DNA of 35,258 nucleotides from Bacilli bacterium (GTDB lineage: Bacteria > Bacillota_I > Bacilli_A > ML615J-28 > CAG-698). The notes beneath the pieces were generated by a model that made no database searches, was not told the origin of the DNA, and saw only the letters and a program-made list of their open reading frames with translations. The position numbers and the translations under genes were made by a program. The stretch's first letter is position 1; every line of letters begins with the position of its first letter. Positions 5,926 to 32,204 of the stretch are shown piece by piece. The stretch is taken from assembly GCA_017450215.1 (NCBI GenBank), contig JAFSVH010000078.1:1-35258 (forward strand), written 5' to 3'.

Positions 5926-8900
5926 TTATCTACTATAAATACCATTGATTGCTGAAGCAAGAATGATTTCTTCTTTTTGACCACCCTTAGTAATAACAAC
6001 TTTATAAGCAATCAATTTAGCTTTAGCATCTTGAGTTGCTCTTTCAGAGTTACCTTCATTACCTGAAACGATAGAGAATTCAAATTTATAATCACTGAAC
6101 TTAGTTAATTTTTCGTATTCAGCAATAACTAATTCTTTAAACTTCCACCAAATCTCTAGATCATTTTCAAGCATAGGTTGTGGACAATCTTTAGCACTAT
6201 AGAAATGATGTCCTACAACTCTTGTGATATCAAGATTATTATCTTGCATTAATTTTGCAACTAATTGAGCAGTCTTATGCCATGTATACCATAAATCACT
6301 ACCTAGGTTAACTGCAGATTCGATACCGATAGAATTCAAGTTACCACCTTTACTACAAATTCTACCAGAGCTAATTTGACTATAGCACCACCAAGTAGTA
6401 CCCATGTAATACTGTCCATCAACAATCTTAAATGCCAAGCCCATATTGTTAATACAAGGTTGTTCTTTTCCGTTAGCAACAAATGTATCACCAGTAACTT
6501 TCTTAGTAGCTTCAGTTGTTCCAGTTGGAACATCTATTGTAGTTTCTTTACCATTAATCTTAAATTTAGAATTTGAACTAATTCCCCAAACAGGATATTG
6601 TGGATCTCCTTCTTCATACATAACACCAGTTGGATACCAATAGAATGGTGTATCAGTCTTATCACCAGCATGAAAACCAATTAATGAATCATCAAGACAA
6701 TGGAATACACCATCATTACCAGTTACATAATGGATAGATGTACCATTACCACCAGTAGCAAAATAATTTGCATTAGCAGCAGCTGTAGCACCTTTAGCCA
6801 TATTTCCAGTATAGTGAACACAAATGAATTCAGTTGATGATTTCTTTCCACCATGGTTGCTTGATATAGCAGCTTGAGCTGCTTCATATTGACGATTAAT
6901 TACTAATTCTTCATTATATAATAAATCACTTACTGAACCAAAGATATCCATATAATAACTTGGAGTACCAGCACCAATACCTAAATTATATCTAGTGAAT
7001 ACATTACTTTCATGACTATTAAGAACAAGTTGTAATACATCACTAACATTTTGACCTACAACTGTAACAAGGAAATCAAAATAGATTTCTTGATCATTGA
7101 ATACATATGCTCTGATATTTACATTACCTTCGCTAACACCTTTTACAACACCTTTATTATCAACAGTTGCAATTGCTTCATCTAAGCTCTTCCAAGCTAA
7201 AATAGCTTCACTTTGATCTTGTAAAATATAAGTAGCATTTAATTGAATAGTATCACCTACTGTCACATATGAATTAGTTTCATAAGATATTTCAAATCTA
7301 CCTGGTGCATAAACCATAATTTCAATCTCCTGATTCAAACTGCTGTTAGCAGCTACTTTTATACTTAATGTAGCAACACCAATCTTCTTTGTATGAATCA
7401 ATCCAGTTTGTGAAACCGTAAAGATTGCTTCATTTGAAGAAGTAAATGTTACATTTTGATTATATGTATTAGATGGATTAAATAACCATTCTAATTGTAA
7501 ATCTTCTAAATAAGGAATTCCTTCATCTGGTAAATTAACAACGATGAAATCATTAGCATCAACTAATAATTGCCATGTAGCTGTTAATGATAAATTTTCA
7601 TTATATGAAGCTGGAATTTCAGTTAATACTGTTCCAAATTCATCCATCCAACCTTCAAAAGCATAACCAGCTCTTGTAGGTTTTGGAAGTGCTGTAACCT
7701 TACCTGGAGCATATGATGTAATTGCATTATTAGGATTAGTTCCACCATTAGTATTGTAAACAATGTTATTACTTAATGAATATAAAGCACCAAATGTTAA
7801 AACGGCATCTTTACTGCAATCATTAGAATGACTACTATTTAAGAATAAACTATCAGCAACATTATTAACACCATAATAGCTATGTTTAGAATCAATAGTG
7901 ATATCAGTATCACTGTTCTTAACAACATATGTACCACTACAATTAGTAAGTACATTGTCACTCAATGTAACTTTACTATCGCTTGTTAAATCAGTAGCAT
8001 CTAATCTTAATAACATATAAGAATTAACTATTTCGTTACATGTAATTTCAATATTTGCTGTACCAGTTCCAGTAAATTTAGTAAATGTAGCAGCAGCATG
8101 ACTTGCAGCTGTTTGTCCGCAGCTCTCAAATTTATTATTTATAATATTAAAGTTTCCAGCACCAAAGCCTCTAAACCATAATACATATTGAGAATAATTA
8201 TAGAAATAATTACCAATGATATTGACATCACCATAGAGTGCATTAGCACCATCAGTTGTCTTAACACCATCATTGTAATTAGATTTAACTGTACCACCAT
8301 AAAATTCTGAATTTTCGATTGTTAAATTCTTGACGAAATTAACAAATGCAATCATAGGTCTACCAGTTGTTAAAGCATTTATTCTAGCTTTCTTAATTGC
8401 GATATTGCTCAATTCAAATCCAGCTCCAGCAGCAAGATTAAATGGAGCAACATTGTTACTTTGAGAATCAGGGTTAACTGTACTACCACTTACTACGCAA
8501 TTTAAGAATTGAACATTATCAATATTCCTATCAGTTGCAAAAGTGAATTTTGCTAATCCAGTAATAGAAACACCATCAATAATAACATTATCACTTGCTA
8601 CAACTAAATCAGATGTAAATACAGTTTCATTACCACGTTCAGTTACATTAGGATTAAGTCCATAATTAGCACCCTTAATAGTAACAGCTTTATCAATAGT
8701 AGCACCAGCGAAAGAACCACTTAATACATAAATAGTATCACCATCTTTACTAGCTGCTAAAGCATCAGCAAGTGTATTATAACTAGCATTAGCACCAACA
8801 ATTAAACCAGTTGCAAAATTAGCATAAACTGTAACATCTGCAGTTTGGTTCTTGATTTCAGAAACATATACTCTAGATCCTTGACTTAAAGTCCAACCTA

Positions 8901-9987
8901 AGAATGTGAAACCAGTCTTTGTTGCAGTTGGTAAAGTAACAGCAGTACCAGCAGCAAATTCATTTAATTCACTAGATAATGTTCCACCATCCAAAACATA
9001 ATTAATCTTATATACACTAGCTTTCCAGTTAGCATATAAAGTCTTAGCTTCTGTAACATTTTCTAATTTTGTTACATATTCACTACTTCCCTTAGTAAGT
9101 GACCAACCTAAGAATTCACAACCAATCTTCTTAGCAGTACCTAAATTCAAAGTACCACCATAAGTAACATATTTAGCACCTGTATAATAACCACCATCTA
9201 AATCAAATGTGATATTCATTCTATTAGGTTCCCATACAGCATAAAGTGTATAATTGCCTTTTACATTTGCTACTTCAGTAACATATGAAGTAGAACTTTG
9301 TGAGAATGACCAACCTAAAAATGTAAAGTTTTCTTTAGAAGGAATACCTAATTGAATAGTAGAACCTTCTTCAACCTCACTCTTTTCAAGATTGTAAGTA
9401 CCACCATTTAATTCATAACTAATTTCATATAAACTAATCCAATTAGCTTTAACAGTTACATTTTCTTTTACATCAGTTAATTCAGTAACATAATCAGTAC
9501 TACCAGTAAATGACCAACCCAAAAATTTTGATTTATCTTTTGTTGGAATAGGTAATGTATAATTACTACCTTTCTTCAAAACAACATAGCCATCATTATT
9601 ACCAGCAATTGAACCACCACCAAGATTAAATGTTACTTTAAATTCATCATTTTCAGGAACAGTAATCTTTAATTCTTTAGTGATTACACTTCCATCAAGT
9701 AAATTAACTTTAACAGTAATAACAACTTCACCAGCTTTTCTAGCTACAACTTCACCAAATTCATCTACTTCAGCAATACTATCATCACTTGATGAATATT
9801 CAACTGAAGCTTCAGTTCCATTTTCAACAGTATAAGTGATTTGGTATTTTTCTTTTAGCTTAAGTTCGCTAATTTCATCTACCAATTTTACTGTAGCTTC
9901 ATTAGGTGTCGGATTGTCATTATCGCAAGCAACGAGAACAAATAACGCTATAATAGCTACAAACATGATTTTAATAAATCTTTTCAC
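5926..9987 (-). CDS. giant lipoprotein: Ig-like, InlB repeats, beta-helix and N-acetylmuramoyl-L-alanine amidase
   Basis: A 1353-residue secreted lipoprotein. It starts at GTG; the next ATG (codon 8) would cut the signal peptide. The lipobox is LVAC with Cys21. Order: Big_2-like Ig domain (about 31-112), four InlB/Listeria-Bacteroides B-repeats (116-183, 186-252, 257-321, 326-391, each with FLGW), a right-handed beta-helix-like region (about 397-740), a fifth B-repeat (742-805), two Ig-like domains (about 808-990), and an Amidase_2/PGRP domain (about 1050-1290). The expected zinc ligands are His1058, His1260 and Cys1268, with Lys1266 two residues before the Cys as in T7 lysozyme. A roughly 90-residue insertion splits the amidase fold. 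It should cleave the bond between N-acetylmuramic acid and L-alanine outside the cell; whether it targets own or foreign wall is unknown. It follows the TIM-barrel gene by 38 bases. Confidence 0.9.
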   Translation of the reverse strand: MKRFIKIMFVAIIALFVLVACDNDNPTPNEATVKLVDEISELKLKEKYQITYTVENGTEASVEYSSSDDSIAEVDEFGEVVARKAGEVVITVKVNLLDGSVITKELKITVPENDEFKVTFNLGGGSIAGNNDGYVVLKKGSNYTLPIPTKDKSKFLGWSFTGSTDYVTELTDVKENVTVKANWISLYEISYELNGGTYNLEKSEVEEGSTIQLGIPSKENFTFLGWSFSQSSTSYVTEVANVKGNYTLYAVWEPNRMNITFDLDGGYYTGAKYVTYGGTLNLGTAKKIGCEFLGWSLTKGSSEYVTKLENVTEAKTLYANWKASVYKINYVLDGGTLSSELNEFAAGTAVTLPTATKTGFTFLGWTLSQGSRVYVSEIKNQTADVTVYANFATGLIVGANASYNTLADALAASKDGDTIYVLSGSFAGATIDKAVTIKGANYGLNPNVTERGNETVFTSDLVVASDNVIIDGVSITGLAKFTFATDRNIDNVQFLNCVVSGSTVNPDSQSNNVAPFNLAAGAGFELSNIAIKKARINALTTGRPMIAFVNFVKNLTIENSEFYGGTVKSNYNDGVKTTDGANALYGDVNIIGNYFYNYSQYVLWFRGFGAGNFNIINNKFESCGQTAASHAAATFTKFTGTGTANIEITCNEIVNSYMLLRLDATDLTSDSKVTLSDNVLTNCSGTYVVKNSDTDITIDSKHSYYGVNNVADSLFLNSSHSNDCSKDAVLTFGALYSLSNNIVYNTNGGTNPNNAITSYAPGKVTALPKPTRAGYAFEGWMDEFGTVLTEIPASYNENLSLTATWQLLVDANDFIVVNLPDEGIPYLEDLQLEWLFNPSNTYNQNVTFTSSNEAIFTVSQTGLIHTKKIGVATLSIKVAANSSLNQEIEIMVYAPGRFEISYETNSYVTVGDTIQLNATYILQDQSEAILAWKSLDEAIATVDNKGVVKGVSEGNVNIRAYVFNDQEIYFDFLVTVVGQNVSDVLQLVLNSHESNVFTRYNLGIGAGTPSYYMDIFGSVSDLLYNEELVINRQYEAAQAAISSNHGGKKSSTEFICVHYTGNMAKGATAAANANYFATGGNGTSIHYVTGNDGVFHCLDDSLIGFHAGDKTDTPFYWYPTGVMYEEGDPQYPVWGISSNSKFKINGKETTIDVPTGTTEATKKVTGDTFVANGKEQPCINNMGLAFKIVDGQYYMGTTWWCYSQISSGRICSKGGNLNSIGIESAVNLGSDLWYTWHKTAQLVAKLMQDNNLDITRVVGHHFYSAKDCPQPMLENDLEIWWKFKELVIAEYEKLTKFSDYKFEFSIVSGNEGNSERATQDAKAKLIAYKVVITKGGQKEEIILASAINGIYSR

Positions 9988-15347: not shown

Positions 15348-18300
15348 TTAATTTGGTAAAATCCATTTTGCATATAGATTAATATCGCCATATTGACCCT
15401 TACTAATCTTAGTAACTTTCTCACCAGATAAATCTTGTTTAGCATACCATCCATCGAAAACAGCACCTGTTACAGTTGGAACTGGTAGATCAAATTCATC
15501 ATTAATTGTATATGTTAAATGTTCTGTAGGTAATGTTACACTAACATCTTCATATGCTTGCTTTTCATATTTTACTGGATAATTGTCAAATACAGCAATC
15601 TTAGTTCCTTTACACCATTGATGGAATCTAAAGAAGATTTGCACTCTATCGTTACTAGCAGGTTTAAATCTTGAACTATATCCTGTATATGAACCATTAA
15701 TAGCATTTAATAAATATGCATTCATTCCTTGATATTTAGTTCTATATGGTTCAGTATTTAAGAAGTATGCATTATCTTCTTCAGGAATATAATCAGCATA
15801 ATTATCAACAGTTAATTGTTTGTATAAATGACAACTAATTGATGCTTCAAATACATATAAATCTAAAGCTCTTAATTCTTCAACTGAACTCCAACTAGCT
15901 GTACCATTAGTACTACTATTATTAATTAATGTGAATTTACCATTTGTTAGACTTAATCCATTCATAATTCCAACTTGAGTACCCATCCAAGTATTCAAAT
16001 CATTATAGAATTCAGAAACAAAGGCTTCTTTATTTTCCCAAGCTGTTGAAGTGAGTTTATATAAATTAGAATCATAATTAATCTTATAATTAGATAATTC
16101 ATAAACAGCTTTAACAGTTAAATCAGATTGAACATTTTCAATACTTGCACTCCAATTTACAAAATTATAACCATTTACAACTGGAGCTGCAGGAGCTTGT
16201 GCATTCTTTCCTTCTTTAACCTTAACTTCTCTAATTAGGTTATCATCCTTATCTAAGAATTTAACTTTATAAGATTTAGTTTCAGGCTTCTTAGCTTGAT
16301 GAGTCAAGTGTTCCATTTCTTGCCAATCGCAAGTAACAAAATCAACACCTTTATCAATCCATGATTGAACTTCTGGATAATCAACATATTGAGTGAATGT
16401 CCAAGTAGAAACTTTGATATCAGCATCTTGATACTTCTTTAACCATGTATCATTGTTGCTGTATCCACCAGTTACATTAATAGAAACATCTAAACCATAT
16501 TGTACACATCTATTATAAACATCAACACTTTCAAATGAATTAACTAAATATTGACATGGAATATATTCATAACCATTTTGCTTAACCCAGATTAAACAAT
16601 TATATTGAGAGCCTAGGAATACAACTTGATCAAGCATATCAACTTTCTTAATTACTTCCATTAAGGCAGGCATTCTTGCTTGACTTGAATTTGTAATACC
16701 ATTTGAACTCTTAAGCTCAACAACAGCAATGATACCATATTCTTTACAAATCTCTAGATAACGTTCAAATGTACAAATCTTAGAAGAATATGAACCTGTT
16801 CCATTAGGAATCAAGTTGTAATTACTTGGTCCAGGGTAACCAGCAGTTCTAGTTGCTGTATGAACAACATCTTTAATATTATTCCAGCTTGTTGAAGAAA
16901 GAGTCTTACCAGCAAATGTATCATCATGGCATGTTACGAATACGCCATCACTTGTTTGTTTAACATCACATTCAATATATTGATAATGCAATGTAGCAGC
17001 AGCATTCAAGAATGCTTCTTCTGTATTAGCAATACCATAATAAGATCCAGCATGTCCAATGAAATTAGTTTGATATGGCCATACAACTTTAACCTGACGT
17101 TCAAATGTAGTTGTATTTCCATGTGCATCAGCAACTGCTAATTTAACTTTTTGAACATTGTATCTCTTTGTATCATGTCCTTCAACAACATAAATAAATT
17201 CAGTAATATCACCATCAAGATTATCACTTGCTACAACATCACCAGCAGGATTATATTCTTCACCATAATTGATTTCTAATATTTCACTAGCACCTTCTTT
17301 TAAGCTGATTGTAGGAGCTACATTATCAACTTCTGTAACAGTAATAGTTCTCTTATAAGTTGCCTTATTTCCATTATTATCAGTTACTTCATAAGTAAGT
17401 TCATAAATACCTAATTTAGAAGTATCAACACTACCAGTAATAACTAACTTATCTGTAACATCACCATCAAAATTATCAACAGCTTTAATTCCTTCTTTAG
17501 GATCAAATGTATCACCTTTATTAACAAATTGATCTTGTCTATATCCTTCTAAAACAGAAATAACAGGAGCAGCTAAATCAACTTCAATAACAGTAATAAC
17601 ACGTTCAAATGTTGCTTCATTACCAGCTTTATCTTTAGCTTTATAAACTAAAGTATATTCACCAGGAACATTCAAATCAACTGTTCCAGTAATTTGCATT
17701 GATGCAGTGATATCACCATCACGACCATCAATTGCTTGAACACCATCAAGTGGATTGAATGTATCAGTTTGTTTAATAGAAGCATTTTGTTCATATCCTG
17801 TTTTCATTGAAATAACAGGAGCAGTCTCATCAGGTTCTAATACAGTAACAGTTCTTTGTAATGTAGCTTTATTACCTTTACTATCTGTAACTGAATAAAT
17901 TAATTTTTGAGTTCCTGTCTTACTACTATCAACTTCACCAGTAACAACAATTTGAGAAGTCAAATCACCATCGATTGCACTTGATGCCTTAACACCAGCC
18001 TTAACATCAAATGTAGTGCCTTGAATAATAGTAGGATTTTGTTCATATCCACTTTCCATAGAAATAACAGGAAGTTTAGATTCATCTTGAACAACAATTA
18101 CTTTCAAATTAGCATAATAACTAGGGTCTTTTTGAACGATAACTTTTACAGTTACTTCACCAACGCTTAAAGCTGTAACTGTATTACCTTCAATACTAAT
18201 TATTCCATTATCAGCTACTTCATATTTAAATGCATCCTCACCAGTAATATTACTGATAGGATTAATCGTATATGTTTCACCTTCCTTTAATGTTACTTCA

Positions 18301-18398
18301 CCTTTTTCTAAGCTTAATGTAATGTTTTCAGTACATGCAACTATAGATAATAAGCAAACTAACGCAAAAACAAAAAACAAAAATCTTTTTAATTTCAT
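15348..18398 (-). CDS. lipoprotein glycerophosphodiester phosphodiesterase with Ig-like and InlB domains
   Basis: A 1016-residue lipoprotein (lipobox IVAC, Cys22). Order: Big_2-like domain (about 25-105); four DUF5011-like Ig domains (about 108-188, 192-272, 276-356, 360-440), each with a D-G-D-[IVL]-T motif; a GDPD TIM barrel (about 443-700); a B-repeat (708-767); an unrecognised module (about 770-930); and a last B-repeat (about 936-1013). In GDPD the usual HRG start is HAG here (His449), a variant I recall in some family members. The metal ligands Glu476/Asp478, His491 and Glu561 are present. It probably hydrolyses glycerophosphodiesters, possibly from teichoic acid or lipids, at the outer membrane face. 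The GGAAGGG site is about 10 bases from the ATG. Confidence 0.87.
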   Translation of the reverse strand: MKLKRFLFFVFALVCLLSIVACTENITLSLEKGEVTLKEGETYTINPISNITGEDAFKYEVADNGIISIEGNTVTALSVGEVTVKVIVQKDPSYYANLKVIVVQDESKLPVISMESGYEQNPTIIQGTTFDVKAGVKASSAIDGDLTSQIVVTGEVDSSKTGTQKLIYSVTDSKGNKATLQRTVTVLEPDETAPVISMKTGYEQNASIKQTDTFNPLDGVQAIDGRDGDITASMQITGTVDLNVPGEYTLVYKAKDKAGNEATFERVITVIEVDLAAPVISVLEGYRQDQFVNKGDTFDPKEGIKAVDNFDGDVTDKLVITGSVDTSKLGIYELTYEVTDNNGNKATYKRTITVTEVDNVAPTISLKEGASEILEINYGEEYNPAGDVVASDNLDGDITEFIYVVEGHDTKRYNVQKVKLAVADAHGNTTTFERQVKVVWPYQTNFIGHAGSYYGIANTEEAFLNAAATLHYQYIECDVKQTSDGVFVTCHDDTFAGKTLSSTSWNNIKDVVHTATRTAGYPGPSNYNLIPNGTGSYSSKICTFERYLEICKEYGIIAVVELKSSNGITNSSQARMPALMEVIKKVDMLDQVVFLGSQYNCLIWVKQNGYEYIPCQYLVNSFESVDVYNRCVQYGLDVSINVTGGYSNNDTWLKKYQDADIKVSTWTFTQYVDYPEVQSWIDKGVDFVTCDWQEMEHLTHQAKKPETKSYKVKFLDKDDNLIREVKVKEGKNAQAPAAPVVNGYNFVNWSASIENVQSDLTVKAVYELSNYKINYDSNLYKLTSTAWENKEAFVSEFYNDLNTWMGTQVGIMNGLSLTNGKFTLINNSSTNGTASWSSVEELRALDLYVFEASISCHLYKQLTVDNYADYIPEEDNAYFLNTEPYRTKYQGMNAYLLNAINGSYTGYSSRFKPASNDRVQIFFRFHQWCKGTKIAVFDNYPVKYEKQAYEDVSVTLPTEHLTYTINDEFDLPVPTVTGAVFDGWYAKQDLSGEKVTKISKGQYGDINLYAKWILPN

Positions 18399-21958: not shown

Positions 21959-22795
21959 CTATTCATTTTTTTCGAATTTCGCATAAAGAGAAGTCACATT
22001 ATAATATTTTTTATTATTATCGTCAGTATAATAAGTAGGAACAATATCAACATCAAAATCCCATTTCTCTGTTAATTCTTTATCTTTATACCATCCAACA
22101 AAAGTATATCCATCATGACTAGGTGCATCCACCTTAAAACTTATTAATTCATTATCATAGTAATCAATAAAATACTTTTCATAAATAACCATTTCATCAT
22201 TGAAATTTGCATCATAATAAACAACATTCGCTGCTTTTAAATAATTATAATTTATTTCATAAGGCACAATATCATTTGAATAATATATTATTCTATCTGG
22301 ATAAAATCCATCAGGTAATATCTTAATTCTAGGGGCTTCATTTAAAAATATTATTTTCTTTAAACTATAACAATTAATAATTATATTATCCCATTCATCA
22401 GGCTCATATTCTATTATAATATATTCAACTTTATTAAGTGACTTATCATAATCATCAAATAGATGATTATTTACACATTTAACTTTATATCCATCAATAG
22501 AATCAGGAATTATGATAATCTTTGATTCTTTTAATTCTTCACTTAATCCTGTAATTTCCGCATAGCTTTTATTATGCAAGACATATGTATAATCTCCACT
22601 AGTAACTACTTGATTATTTCTTGTTGCTGGTCTTCCAAAGAAACCTGATATTGCAAACATATATGTAACTACTAAACTACGTAATATTATTATGATGATA
22701 ACTAATAAAATTAGTGTAGAAAATAAAACAATGTAAGCAATTCTAAATTTAGTTATTCTATTTTCAATAGTATTAAGATCTAATTCTTTATTCAT
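21959..22795 (-). CDS. membrane-anchored protein with BspA-type LRR-like segment and InlB repeat (copy 2)
   Basis: A roughly 278-residue protein with a short cytoplasmic N-terminus and one membrane segment (about residues 18-46). The external part begins with a segment like a BspA-type leucine-rich repeat (YAEITGLS ... IIIPDSIDGYKVKCV at about 77-108). It ends in an InlB-type B-repeat with GYTFVGWYKDKELTEKWDFD. I start it at the ATG at 22795, which overlaps the stop of the upstream paralogue by 8 bases; an ATG at 22816 is possible. The last 80 residues are clearly related to the upstream neighbour, so the pair arose by tandem duplication. A role in adhesion or surface sensing is only a guess. 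Confidence 0.7.
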   Translation of the reverse strand: MNKELDLNTIENRITKFRIAYIVLFSTLILLVIIIIILRSLVVTYMFAISGFFGRPATRNNQVVTSGDYTYVLHNKSYAEITGLSEELKESKIIIIPDSIDGYKVKCVNNHLFDDYDKSLNKVEYIIIEYEPDEWDNIIINCYSLKKIIFLNEAPRIKILPDGFYPDRIIYYSNDIVPYEINYNYLKAANVVYYDANFNDEMVIYEKYFIDYYDNELISFKVDAPSHDGYTFVGWYKDKELTEKWDFDVDIVPTYYTDDNNKKYYNVTSLYAKFEKNE

Positions 22796-23627
22796 TTGTC
22801 TTTTCCCATTTTGCATATAAATGCATTACCTTATGTATTTTAATATATTCATCATCTTCACTATTTTTAATAAAAGTATTAACTACATCATTATCAAAAT
22901 CCCATTCATCAGTTAATGTTTTATCTTTATACCAGCCAATAAATTTATACCCTTCTTTTTCAGGACTTTCAATTCTTTGCTTGATACATTCATTATCATA
23001 ATAATCAATATAATATGGATCATTATAAATATTATAATCATTATTATAATCGCTTAAATATACGACATTTGCATATTTAAAGAAGTTAACACTACATTCT
23101 TCTACTTCTTCACTATCCTTATACCCAATGATATTAATATCTTTATATTTATATGTTCCAAAACCAACTACATTATTTTCATTATTTTCCTTAAATACTT
23201 CATAATTTTTATAATCAAGATATACAATCTTTTCAAATTCTTGTGTAACATCAATAAATGTATGTCTAGAAAAATTAATATTTTCAGTTATATACACATA
23301 TTTTGTATTATCAATAGCTAAACCTTTGTCTTCATCACCATAATACTTAACATTATATTTTTTATTATTTACATAAATAACATTATTCAAATATATATAA
23401 TCGTTTGAAATATTATTTCTTATTCTTATAACATCATATTTATAACCATCTTTTAATAAAGAAACATTACTATCTGAAACTAGAGTTTTATTTTTTTTAT
23501 TATTAGAAACATTCAATATATTAATAAATAAAACTGATACAAATATAACCCAACAAGTCAAAGATATTATAAACAATGATAATACTACATGATATTTCTT
23601 TTTTCTTTTCAACAACCATTCGTTCAT
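22788..23627 (-). CDS. membrane-anchored InlB-repeat protein (copy 1)
   Basis: A roughly 279-residue protein: a basic N-terminus (LLKRKKKYH), one membrane segment (about residues 15-38), and an external region rich in Asn, Tyr and Asp, with little similarity to known folds. It ends in a B-repeat with GYKFIGWYKDKTLTDEWDFD. I chose the ATG at 23627, which has AGGAGGT 5 bases upstream; the ATG at 23654 has none. Its C-terminus matches the downstream gene (YIDYYDNE ... GWYKDK), so the two are tandem paralogues in one operon. Function is unknown. Confidence 0.7.
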   Translation of the reverse strand: MNEWLLKRKKKYHVVLSLFIISLTCWVIFVSVLFINILNVSNNKKNKTLVSDSNVSLLKDGYKYDVIRIRNNISNDYIYLNNVIYVNNKKYNVKYYGDEDKGLAIDNTKYVYITENINFSRHTFIDVTQEFEKIVYLDYKNYEVFKENNENNVVGFGTYKYKDINIIGYKDSEEVEECSVNFFKYANVVYLSDYNNDYNIYNDPYYIDYYDNECIKQRIESPEKEGYKFIGWYKDKTLTDEWDFDNDVVNTFIKNSEDDEYIKIHKVMHLYAKWEKTNE

Positions 23628-23667
23628 AAGATACCTCCTAAAAATGCTTTTCATATATAATTACAAT

Positions 23668-23783: not shown

Positions 23784-25721
23784 TTATGCTAATTTTGTAG
23801 TATAAGTCTTTTCTAAAACTGTAGTATTATTCTTAGTAACTTTAACTGAATATGAAATTTCATCTCCAGCTCTACATGATAATGTAATGTAACCAGCATT
23901 TGTTAATTTCTTAGTATCATTTGAAGTCCATGAGAATTTATAATCTCCAAATGTGTCAAGACCATATTTCATTACAGCACACAAATCTCTGAATTGTGCC
24001 CAGTGATCTCCTTCACGAATTGCTTGAGGACAATTCTTACCACAGAAATTATTATGTTGATAAATTCTATCGCAATCTAAATTATATTTTCTAAGAAGCA
24101 TAGTTGTAAGCTTGCAAGCATTCATAAATGTCTTAACATAATCACTACCAGGATGAACACATGTTTCCATACTTACACTATTTCTATTACCGCCAGAATT
24201 AGAAATATAACCATAACCAGTATTATACCAAGCAGTATTCATCCAATAATTACCATTAGCTCCAACTGTAGTATAAATACCATATGGACCCCATCTTAAA
24301 TTTTGAGTATCAGATGGAATTCTAATCTTAGTTTTTTGTCCGCCAAGAACGAAATATCTATCGCTTGAAACTGAAAGTTTTGGTGCTCCCATTGTAGCCT
24401 TTACTCCCGTATCATTTAATTGATATAATCTTGAACCATCTGCTGCATGCCATGTAATTTCACCATCATTGATGTGTTGATAAATGCTTACATCATCAAC
24501 AGCAAAATGCCAACTAGTTTGAGCTCCACCAGAACCATTAGCGATGTATCTTGCATGCATTTCTGCGTTTGCACCATTACTTGGGTTACCCGTATCATGA
24601 ACTGTAATAAATTGAGTACTCGCTCTCATTTGGTCTGGCTTATTTCCTAAACCATCTTTAATCAATTGAACTTTAAGAATTGTTTCTGGTCCTGTTCCAT
24701 CATAGAAATAAATGAAACCATAACTTTGTGTAATATTTGAATAACTATAATTAAAATTCATCTTATTGAATGTATTAACAGCAATAGCATCAAGGAATTT
24801 ATTTAATTTTTCGTCCATACTCATATTCTTAGTATCAAGTGCTTTAACTTTACAATAGTATTCAGGAGAATTCTTAAATTGTCCATCATATTCAACTTTT
24901 GCTACAACACTTACATAACGTTCAAATGGGAATTCAGTAACTTTTCCATCAGCAGAAACTAAATCAGGATTACTTGATTTCCAAGTTATCTTAGCTCCAT
25001 TAACACCTTCGGTAATTAATCCTTTTTCACTAGTTAACATCAAATCAAGCATATTTTCATCAATATAATCAATGCTTTCTTCTAAAACATCTAAAACAGT
25101 CTTTCCTTGAACGCTCAATCTAAATTCCTCCGTAACTGTATCATAACTATCACCAATTGTAACTGTAAGAATAATTTCAGTATCTTGTACTGGTCTTGTA
25201 TATTTACCATCATTTGTAAATATTTCTTCATTTGATGACTGAACACCAACACTAATAATATTATAATAATTAGATGGTATATCAATATCTCTAGCAATGA
25301 AATATTGCTTTTTACCACCAACTTGCTTACTTGGTAAAATTGATTCAAATTTTGCTGCAGCCTCTTCTAAAGTGATTGGTGAAATATGTACAGTAATGTA
25401 ATCGCCATCGAATGATGAACCACTTTGAACAGTGAAACCTAAATCAACATCAGTTCCTCTCTTTGGTCTTTCAATAATCTCTCCTGTTTCATCCATAATA
25501 TCTGGATCAGATGAGAACCATGTAATTGTACCACCTAATGTAGGATGAGTTGTAGGAAGTGTTAAATCTTCAGTTACATTTACACCAATAGTATCTAAAA
25601 CCCATGCTTTAATTTCTGCAGCATTTCCTTCATTTGAAACCGGTTTATCTTCACATCCAACTAAAGAAAACAATAGAAATAATGCAAAAACAATAAATAG
25701 TATTTTAATGCTTCTTTTCAT
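23784..25721 (-). CDS. lipoprotein N-acetylmuramoyl-L-alanine amidase (Amidase_2/PGRP) with Ig-like domains
   Basis: A 645-residue lipoprotein. I chose the ATG at 25721 (GGAGG 7 bases upstream); the longer frame runs into frr. The lipobox is LVGC, Cys23. Three Ig-like domains of the 'atrophied' Big type follow (about 30-115, 120-205, 215-300, with TWFSSDP and TWKSSNP), then the amidase (about 345-600). Zinc ligands are His375 (TVHDTGN), His556 and Cys564, with Lys562 in the catalytic-lysine position. It is a divergent paralogue of the giant amidase at 5.9-10 kb: both share GGN-x-NS, GSD and H-x7-CPQ motifs, the same insertion, and a beta-rich tail starting DYKF. It starts 13 bases after frr, so it is probably co-transcribed with the translation operon. 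Confidence 0.9.
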   Translation of the reverse strand: MKRSIKILFIVFALFLLFSLVGCEDKPVSNEGNAAEIKAWVLDTIGVNVTEDLTLPTTHPTLGGTITWFSSDPDIMDETGEIIERPKRGTDVDLGFTVQSGSSFDGDYITVHISPITLEEAAAKFESILPSKQVGGKKQYFIARDIDIPSNYYNIISVGVQSSNEEIFTNDGKYTRPVQDTEIILTVTIGDSYDTVTEEFRLSVQGKTVLDVLEESIDYIDENMLDLMLTSEKGLITEGVNGAKITWKSSNPDLVSADGKVTEFPFERYVSVVAKVEYDGQFKNSPEYYCKVKALDTKNMSMDEKLNKFLDAIAVNTFNKMNFNYSYSNITQSYGFIYFYDGTGPETILKVQLIKDGLGNKPDQMRASTQFITVHDTGNPSNGANAEMHARYIANGSGGAQTSWHFAVDDVSIYQHINDGEITWHAADGSRLYQLNDTGVKATMGAPKLSVSSDRYFVLGGQKTKIRIPSDTQNLRWGPYGIYTTVGANGNYWMNTAWYNTGYGYISNSGGNRNSVSMETCVHPGSDYVKTFMNACKLTTMLLRKYNLDCDRIYQHNNFCGKNCPQAIREGDHWAQFRDLCAVMKYGLDTFGDYKFSWTSNDTKKLTNAGYITLSCRAGDEISYSVKVTKNNTTVLEKTYTTKLA

Positions 25722-30587: not shown

Positions 30588-32204
30588 TCATTTTAATTTA
30601 ACACCATTTAATACTTGCATCAAAGTTCCCGTTGGGTCATCTTGATAACTCCAATACATAACACCACCTAAATTCTTTTGAATAGTATAATTATATTTAT
30701 CATTCACACTTGCTGCATTATCAAAGCTAATGACAACTTTATTTTTTGTATCATATAGATAATAAGCGAGAGCACTTGAATCATAGTATTCAACAACATC
30801 TCCACCAAGTCTAGATAAATAATCATTTACAACTGTATCATATTTAATAGTTGATCTCGTTTCGTATTTAGTACCTATTGCAGTCTTTGGGTTTTCAATT
30901 CCAGTATATTTACGAGCATAGAAAGCAATACCAATAACAATCTTTCTTGAATCAACTTTTCGATTTAATAATACATTAGCTCCAACTTTAGCAGTAGATA
31001 AATTAGTAAGATGCTTTACCACACCACTACCATCATCATCAAGATCATAAGTCATAATATAGAAATAATCCATATATTTATTTAGTTCAGTATAATTATA
31101 TCTTTCAGTTGCCCACTCACCACAAGGTACAGCAGCAGAAATCAAATATCCTTCATCCTTTGCTTTTAATGTGTCATAAATCTCTTTCATCAATAAAGTA
31201 AAATTATCTTTATCTTTTGCTTTAGGATATTCCCAATCTAAATCAATTCCATCAAGTTGATATTTCTCCATTACTTCTAGAATAGCATTTGCTACTTGCT
31301 TTCTATTTTCTTCAGTTGAACTGGCTTCACTATATGTATTCCAGAATGTTAAATCGGTATGCCAGCCACCAAGTGACAAGCACACTTTAACACCTTTTCT
31401 ATGCACTTCACTGATTGTATTAATGCTACTAGCACCGCTAACATCAATATAATATACATCATTGCCAGCTTCACTTCTTTTTGCAATCTGAGCAAAACTA
31501 TAATTGATGATATCAATAGTATCATAATCGATATCATTTAATCCATTAAACTTACCATAGAAATAACTAACAACTAATTGCTTATCATTGAATTTACGTT
31601 CTAACTTCTCAATTTTAACCGTCTTATTAAATTCATAATTATCACTTAATTTAAGACATGTGATATTACACTTTACATTAACATTTCTATCTTCACTTGT
31701 ATGATATACTTCACCAACTTCATTAATATATCTTAGATTGTCACTAGACCATTTAAGAACAAAGGTATATTCTGAATAATCATTTTTATAATCATAAAAC
31801 ATTGGAAAATCTAAAGTAAAATTATCTTTATCTATTACTTCAGGAATTATTGTTTCTAAATATCTTTTACATTCTTCAATACCTAAAACTATATATGAAT
31901 TTTCATTTTCTAAATAATTAATAAAATTATTAGCATATACCAAATTTTCATAATTAGTGACTAATGCTTTCTCTTCATCATTTAAATCATTATACATTTG
32001 ATTAGCATAGCTAACATCATCTTTTCTTCTCAATGTAACCTTACCATCAAATTCATCAATTAAATCAATAACAAATTGAACCTTATCTTCATCAATTCCA
32101 TCATCATCAATTCCACCATTAGGTGAAGGATCACTACATCCACATAAGAAAAGCACAAAGACAAAAACAAACAACAAAATTAAACATATTCTTTTATTTT
32201 TCAT
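30588..32204 (-). CDS. GH18 family glycosidase lipoprotein (chitinase / N-acetylglucosaminidase-like)
   Basis: A 538-residue lipoprotein (lipobox LCGC, Cys23). After a linker there is a helical segment (about 42-100) of a kind common in Bacillota surface proteins, an Ig-like region (about 110-200, with KWSSDNL), and a GH18 TIM barrel (about 208-535). The signature DGIDLDWE is intact at 318-325, with the catalytic acid Glu325, and LSLGGW lies at 276-281. GH18 enzymes cut beta-1,4 bonds next to N-acetylglucosamine by substrate-assisted catalysis, in chitin, peptidoglycan or N-glycans; the substrate cannot be read here. Its ATG overlaps the xerC stop, with AAGGAGG inside xerC, so the two are translationally coupled. 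Confidence 0.88.
   Translation of the reverse strand: MKNKRICLILLFVFVFVLFLCGCSDPSPNGGIDDDGIDEDKVQFVIDLIDEFDGKVTLRRKDDVSYANQMYNDLNDEEKALVTNYENLVYANNFINYLENENSYIVLGIEECKRYLETIIPEVIDKDNFTLDFPMFYDYKNDYSEYTFVLKWSSDNLRYINEVGEVYHTSEDRNVNVKCNITCLKLSDNYEFNKTVKIEKLERKFNDKQLVVSYFYGKFNGLNDIDYDTIDIINYSFAQIAKRSEAGNDVYYIDVSGASSINTISEVHRKGVKVCLSLGGWHTDLTFWNTYSEASSTEENRKQVANAILEVMEKYQLDGIDLDWEYPKAKDKDNFTLLMKEIYDTLKAKDEGYLISAAVPCGEWATERYNYTELNKYMDYFYIMTYDLDDDGSGVVKHLTNLSTAKVGANVLLNRKVDSRKIVIGIAFYARKYTGIENPKTAIGTKYETRSTIKYDTVVNDYLSRLGGDVVEYYDSSALAYYLYDTKNKVVISFDNAASVNDKYNYTIQKNLGGVMYWSYQDDPTGTLMQVLNGVKLK

Follow-up and report, generated by a model that had tools for sequence, protein, structure and literature searches.

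Two predicted lipid-anchored amidases sharing a beta-rich insertion in a seemingly wall-less gut Bacilli bacterium

We analysed a 35,258-nucleotide stretch of DNA (hereafter the window; contig JAFSVH010000078.1, positions 1 to 35,258, of assembly GCA_017450215.1) from a Bacilli bacterium of the order ML615J-28, and focused on two genes predicted to encode N-acetylmuramoyl-L-alanine amidases, at 5926..9987 and 23784..25721. Cell-wall amidases are usually interpreted as autolysins or phage lysins. The surprise here is that such enzymes are as numerous in seemingly wall-less bacteria as in walled relatives. Because the amidases stay numerous in genomes seemingly unable to build walls, foreign peptidoglycan is the indicated substrate. 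We propose, with a probability of roughly 0.6, that the two window proteins are zinc amidases which are anchored in the membrane, face outward and cut foreign peptidoglycan, and that they belong to the 11-enzyme set of a seemingly wall-less gut bacterium. From sequence and models we infer the extracellular location, the catalysis, the foreign target and the nutritional purpose, as well as the role of an insertion that the two proteins share.

Both genes and all of their features lie on the minus strand. The first (referred to as the 5926 protein) is a 1353-amino-acid (aa) open reading frame (ORF) with a GTG start, and 5926-7100 holds its C-terminal ~391 aa. It is predicted to be a lipoprotein-type amidase on a stalk of Ig/InlB repeats, with five Flg_new and three Big_2 repeats followed by Amidase_2 in the Pfam order. 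The second (the 23784 protein), a lipoprotein-type amidase of 645 aa, has aBig_2 repeats and then Amidase_2. Amidase_2 scored 54.4 bits in the 5926 protein and 51.3 bits in the 23784 protein, against a Pfam cut-off of 26, with two stretches in each. Pattern reading alone identified the putative signal peptides and their lipoboxes, LVA-C in the 5926 protein (Cys21; 9925..9987) and LVG-C in the 23784 protein (Cys23; 25653..25721). Five residues (H62, E227, H264, K270 and C272) were invariant in 23/23 aligned domains. In the 5926 protein these are the first zinc His in VH-Y-TGN (6814..6816), the catalytic-type Glu of IGIE (6319..6321), which aligns to the IGIE Glu of the endolysin XlyA, and the second zinc His, Lys and Cys in H-x5-K-x-C (6184..6210); their counterparts in the 23784 protein lie at 24597..24599, 24165..24167 and 24030..24056. 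The insertion, between HA[GA]D and GGN-x-NS, measures 105 aa in the 5926 protein (6349..6663) and 82 aa in the 23784 protein (24195..24440). It directly follows the HA[GA] motif, and its end lies 10 residues ahead of the Glu.

We compared the catalytic domains with solved structures. A profile of 23 domains found XlyA of Bacillus subtilis first (E 2e-34), and the alignment broke at XlyA residue 85, leaving the insertion unaligned. An AlphaFold2 model of the 5926 domain (mean pLDDT 85.4, pTM 0.89) superposed on XlyA over 156/156 residues with a Z of 21.6 and an rmsd of 1.6 Å. T7 lysozyme (1lba), which has the His-x7-Cys spacing and shares the zinc amidase fold with the window amidases, gave a Z of 11.4 and lacks the insertion. 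We therefore rejected T7 lysozyme as nearest kin, although a preliminary description of this DNA had used it as the reference. By modelled fold and residues, both proteins are predicted Amidase_2 enzymes of the XlyA type. XlyA, PlyL and PlyG, lysins of phages or prophages that carry different binding modules, have the catalytic domain and its His / His-x7-Cys, Lys and Glu in common with both amidases. Their solved domains lack the insertion and stop ahead of any aBig_2-type tail, and none of the solved amidases and phage lysins examined has the insertion. What sets the window amidases apart from XlyA is the insertion, together with the Ig stalk and tail, the predicted lipid anchor and the many paralogues.

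In the window's genome (G000, 2.05 Mb, 94% complete), Amidase_2 was found at 14 places, corresponding to 11 proteins, and a sister genome of the same genus (G001) has 12 Amidase_2 matches; both genomes are drafts. A lipobox was readable in 9/11 of the G000 paralogues. We called a genome wall-less if it had none of FtsW/RodA, a full-length high-score MurA and a penicillin-binding protein (PBP) transpeptidase, a genotype read from draft genomes. Profile searches of the G000 draft gave no match for FtsW/RodA, MurA or PBP transpeptidase. G001 had no FtsW/RodA or PBP, and its MurA match of 28.8 bits was far under the cut-off. The same searches detected FtsW/RodA in 33/60 genomes and PBPs in 24/43. 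Mur_ligase_M gave three weak matches in G000 (best E 5.9e-13), compared with 4e-33 to 5e-53 in 24/24 walled genomes of the order. In total, 19/43 genomes of the order were wall-less and 24 were walled (9 and 15, respectively, among good-quality genomes).

Products of wall cleavage could be used by many of these organisms. MurQ, above cut-off, was found in 32/43 genomes of the order, including 12/19 wall-less genomes and G001, and AnmK in 32/43 and 12/19. Of the 12 wall-less genomes with MurQ, eight had the surroundings of the gene examined, with contig ends cutting some loci. MupG, AnmK, MurQ and an alpha/beta hydrolase were clustered in 8/8 loci, joined by NamZ in six, EtfB and EtfA in six, a BadF-type kinase in five and a GlcD-type oxidase in five. 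In 5/8 loci, a GH3 (NagZ-type) domain was fused to MupG in one protein (L132:3348-5996; also L130, L131, L133 and L135). MurQ frees D-lactate from N-acetylmuramic acid (MurNAc)-6-phosphate, and for this reason oxidation of lactate would suit the Etf and oxidase genes. Passages on wall-less Spiroplasma with murP and murQ (PMC3563533, PMC4607517, PMC12453411) show that bacteria lacking a wall have been credited with MurNAc use before, and there too the catabolism was inferred from genomes. Relative to Spiroplasma, what differs here is the NamZ/NagZ-MupG/AnmK/MurQ/EtfAB cluster and the many predicted secreted amidases. MupG and MurQ are also common to the recycling pathway of Staphylococcus aureus (PMC6262408), which serves the own wall of a walled organism. 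As a separate observation, Amidase_2 and over-cut-off MurQ are absent together in two wall-less genomes of one genus in the same family (G014 and G023, genus g14).

The mechanism that we propose is that the amidases cut the MurNAc-L-Ala bond in the peptidoglycan of other bacteria, with a core that would work as in XlyA and PlyL and with the Ig/InlB repeats serving as a stalk from the lipid anchor. Since the cell seems to lack wall-building genes, it would need no immunity to its own 11 amidases. In wall-less relatives, the freed wall sugars would feed the cytosolic MurNAc pathway (NamZ, NagZ-MupG, AnmK, MurQ), and EtfAB together with the GlcD-type oxidase would handle the resulting D-lactate. 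A broader and tentative idea, which we hold with less than even confidence, is that wall-less gut Bacilli partly eat their neighbours' walls with about a dozen lipid-anchored amidases bearing a new glycan-gripping subdomain plus the MurNAc/lactate cluster, and that this is the basis of Anaeroplasma bacteriolysis. Rumen Anaeroplasma are anaerobic mycoplasmas reported to lyse bacteria (Robinson et al. 1975 in PMC5165256; Joblin and Naylor 2002 in PMC8941964). The passages of these sources name no enzyme. Among the open-access papers listed, none tied such amidases to wall-less gut Bacilli in its title or the opening of its abstract, and we found none naming the lytic enzyme of Anaeroplasma. The amidase set offers candidate enzymes for the bacteriolysis ascribed to rumen Anaeroplasma. 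The 11 named relatives are metagenome-assembled genomes (MAGs) that go under the names Bacilli, Erysipelotrichaceae and, for one of them, Anaeroplasma bactoclasticum, and ruminant colon or rectum appears in 7/11 of the titles.

The same enzymes could act as weapons, if lysis of competitors outweighs feeding and the catabolism of MurNAc is a side effect. The large paralogue set and the diverse Ig stalks would suit such a use, a wall-less producer would be immune, and rumen Anaeroplasma is cited as bacteriolytic in passages of PMC5165256, PMC5981327 and PMC8941964. We consider this purpose unlikely, because amidase number tracks with MurQ: MurQ was found in 31/35 genomes having at least two Amidase_2 matches vs 1/8 of the remainder (Fisher p 7e-5, kinship uncorrected), and in 20/21 vs 0/3 of the good-quality genomes (p 0.002, kinship uncorrected). 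In addition, a Pfam scan of the window's 20 other proteins revealed neither a toxin-delivery family nor an immunity family.

We also considered whether the amidases are ordinary autolysins or wall-remodelling enzymes inherited from walled ancestors and awaiting loss. Walled members of the order do have similar amidase numbers, with Amidase_2 medians of 7 in nine wall-less and 6 in 15 walled good-quality genomes (p 0.70) and insertion match medians of 4 and 4 (p 0.79). According to passages of PMC10868615, 40-60% of Anaeroplasmataceae genomes have wall (mur) genes, which may denote walled species or be vestigial, a figure that also fits a mixed walled/wall-less family. On the other hand, three independent wall-gene families are absent in two genomes of the window's genus, and the amidase domains have no internal stops. 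Seven reciprocal-best pairs between G000 and G001, for the 11 amidases of G000, gave dN/dS values of 0.23-0.73, the 5926 protein having 0.23; best hits in G001 were one-way for the remaining four (dN/dS 0.32-0.91). From the values in the reciprocal-best pairs, most amidases, the 5926 protein included, seem to have been kept working in a wall-less genus. This does not extend to the 23784 protein, which has no clear orthologue in G001 and favours loss pending. Furthermore, we compared 17 genomes from other orders of the class, a set that does not include the insertion-bearing f10 genus: Amidase_2 was absent from 6/6 FtsW-less genomes and present in 6/11 with FtsW. Weighing these observations, we find the autolysin explanation quite unlikely. 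A role in trimming free gut muropeptides or host-facing peptidoglycan signals, as by animal PGRP amidases, appears very improbable: the fold is common to both (PGRP-LB, Z 11.4) and a paralogue type without a signal peptide could act on imported muropeptides, but the nearest relatives are endolysin domains and the long repeat stalks would suit polymer binding.

Several observations weigh against our proposal that the amidases cut foreign peptidoglycan for a wall-less cell. The walled relatives hold equal amidase numbers, which means that the origin of the family was not tied to wall-less life, and wall-less status itself is a genotype read from draft genomes. Wall genes are present in G036, to which the MAG labelled as Anaeroplasma bactoclasticum appears to correspond (identical core). 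Seven genomes that belong to the class but not to the order also have insertion-bearing amidases, five of them in one f10 genus. In G000, MurQ did not reach the cut-off and AnmK gave no match. G001 has MupG-AnmK-MurQ on a 5.8-kb contig, and because MurQ and AnmK adjoin elsewhere, an assembly gap in G000 may be responsible. The eight MurQ loci contain no amidase, and we accordingly rejected physical linkage of the amidases with the MurQ cluster; a Pfam scan of the proteins flanking the clusters named no importer. GH25 lysozyme was rejected as a partner enzyme, as it was found in 1/43 genomes of the order. The insertion itself tracks with MurQ weakly (29/35 vs 3/8, p 0.017; p 0.11 in good-quality genomes; kinship uncorrected in both). 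The dS values of the amidase pairs (0.69-1.11) are near saturation, and for the 23784 protein the best match in G001 is not reciprocal (38% identity, one-way dN/dS 0.91). Finally, one G000 paralogue has no signal peptide and another has an ambiguous start.

We then compared the two insertions with each other. The preliminary description had reported a beta-rich insertion ahead of GGN-x-NS in both proteins, and the two insertions proved to be homologous. By sequence alone, BLASTP aligned them with an E of 1e-4 over 38 aa, and alignment of their family profiles with hhalign gave 99.3% and an E of 3.5e-20 over 75 columns. Eight predicted strands follow in the same order and correspond one-to-one, a likeness judged from secondary structure and profiles. 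Counted from the first residue of each insertion, the strands are 9-15, 26-28, 33-36, 39-44, 78-81, 84-88, 90-93 and 101-104 in the 5926 protein, which has an extra hairpin (60-63, 66-69), and 8-14, 22-24, 29-32, 35-40, 57-59, 64-68, 70-73 and 77-80 in the 23784 protein, whose insertion was modelled alone (mean pLDDT 81.0, pTM 0.69). Of the sequence marks that had been listed, the YYMGTTWW / YWMNTAWY patterns are present in the two proteins, and the zinc spacing (H-x7-C, with K two ahead of C) is exact in both. The K-T-[KT]-I-x-[IV]-P pattern is found in the 23784 protein (QKTKIRIP); the 5926 protein reads K-E-T-T-I-D-V-P instead.

The insertion did not correspond to a known Amidase_2 sub-domain in Pfam, PDB sequence or fold searches. 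Pfam gave zero matches for the 5926 insertion, and a search with 23 insertions returned four families, each matching weakly and in only one or two of the insertions (best E 0.0065). Foldseek with the insertion against PDB and BFVD gave zero matches at E<=0.001, the best second-look (VIA) Z being 3.2, and no known subdomain matched in PDB by sequence. We conclude that the insertion is a homologous beta-rich subdomain in both proteins, without a match in the libraries searched. Neither PDB nor the viral models supplied a known fold for the insertion, a negative that does not demonstrate a new one. The conserved positions of the insertion are mostly Gly, Pro and aromatic residues; they have no invariant polar set, and on that ground we rejected a catalytic role. 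In sequence, the insertion borders the active site, so that a library-unmatched element adjoining the active site is now marked in an endolysin-type amidase fold. Since it occupies the loop that joins the HA[GA]D and IGIE strands, the insertion is likely to line the substrate groove, where its conserved aromatics could hold glycan strands or set specificity. It may also reshape the groove, as had been suggested earlier.

The preliminary description had treated the insertion as a mark of the two window proteins and of a distinct subfamily. We found it to be much more widespread. It is present in 10/11 Amidase_2 proteins of G000, the protein on contig C138 being without it. The insertion profile matched 35/43 genomes of the order, including a weak match in G003 (E 2.6e-4), and 47/395 sampled genomes of the class. 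Of the 12 matching genomes outside the order, seven matched strongly (five in family f10, the others in f8 and f15) and five weakly (E 5e-5 to 9e-4). An Amidase_2 core was in the same frame in 35/35 loci with a strong insertion match; it was absent in the four weak outside-order genomes whose loci were fetched and in one further genome. We dismissed the weak matches in family f7 (L093-L097, 5/40 loci), which have no amidase core, as probably due to chance.

Phage origin of the insertion was rejected, since no carrier appeared in phage records or measured viral loci. Matches were found in 29 phage records, none with 80% coverage (at most 54% among the 15 matches listed), and in 14 plasmid records, also none with 80% coverage. 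The spacing from the first His to the Glu motif fell into two groups, 58-83 residues (25 rows) and 138-200 residues (48 rows, the carriers), and all 27 of the 30 viral loci that were measurable had a spacing of 58-66.

Three variants of the enzyme were observed along the way. Two outside-order insertion amidases (L083 and L084, in the f10 genomes G129 and G123) have the zinc Cys replaced by Asp (H-x7-D). AmpD likewise has an Asp at the zinc Cys position. In at least two genera, an insertion amidase of ~360 aa has no signal peptide (L016:2486-3583, L079:1099-2175), and could be a cytosolic muropeptide amidase. In a G000 paralogue (L010:2370-4712), an in-frame stop lies upstream, after a repeat-bearing ORF, which may reflect decay or an assembly error.

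We built a tree of the amidase core with the insertion removed. Its 73 rows are amidases that could be anchored by motif, 48 of them carriers, and several rows are the same species from two collections. Loci left out include, for example, L033, L039, L041, L051, L053, L069, L078, L081 and L085, and also L001-L008 and L064, which are duplicates of G000's own loci. One supported clade (98/82) contained 44/48 carriers, and the 23784 protein, L009, L071 and L073 fell outside of it. A single clade of all 48 carriers was rejected (AU p 0.006). The best tree has five insertion changes, two of which are forced by supported branches. Because the core tree rejects one clade, we view the insertion as an often-lost or exchanged subdomain and not as the mark of a clean subfamily, and the homology of the insertions makes several losses or exchanges more probable than several origins.

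The beta-rich DYKF tail, which had been described together with the insertion, is present in both proteins (5932..6114 in the 5926 protein and 23793..23960 in the 23784 protein) and is independent of the insertion, occurring with and without it. The tail was assigned by alignment as Ig-like and aBig_2-type. The aBig_2 family (an atrophied Ig domain) matched 13/24 tails at E<=0.1 (best 7e-6), the 5926 tail alone having no match at that threshold. We therefore rejected the tail as part of the novelty of the insertion, since it is Ig-like and common to insertion-free relatives.

Other proteins of the window were noted in passing. An Ig-repeat, lipoprotein-like protein at 15348-18398 carries a glycerophosphodiester phosphodiesterase domain, with teichoic-acid-like polymers or lipids as possible targets. 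Between the two amidase genes, overlapping tandem ORFs at 21959-22816 and 22788-23654 each match Flg_new once and may have a membrane segment at the N-terminus. The protein at 30588-32204 is a GH18 lipoprotein-like glycosidase whose closest solved structures are chitinases (E 6e-62), and it may have a role in foraging on sugar polymers.

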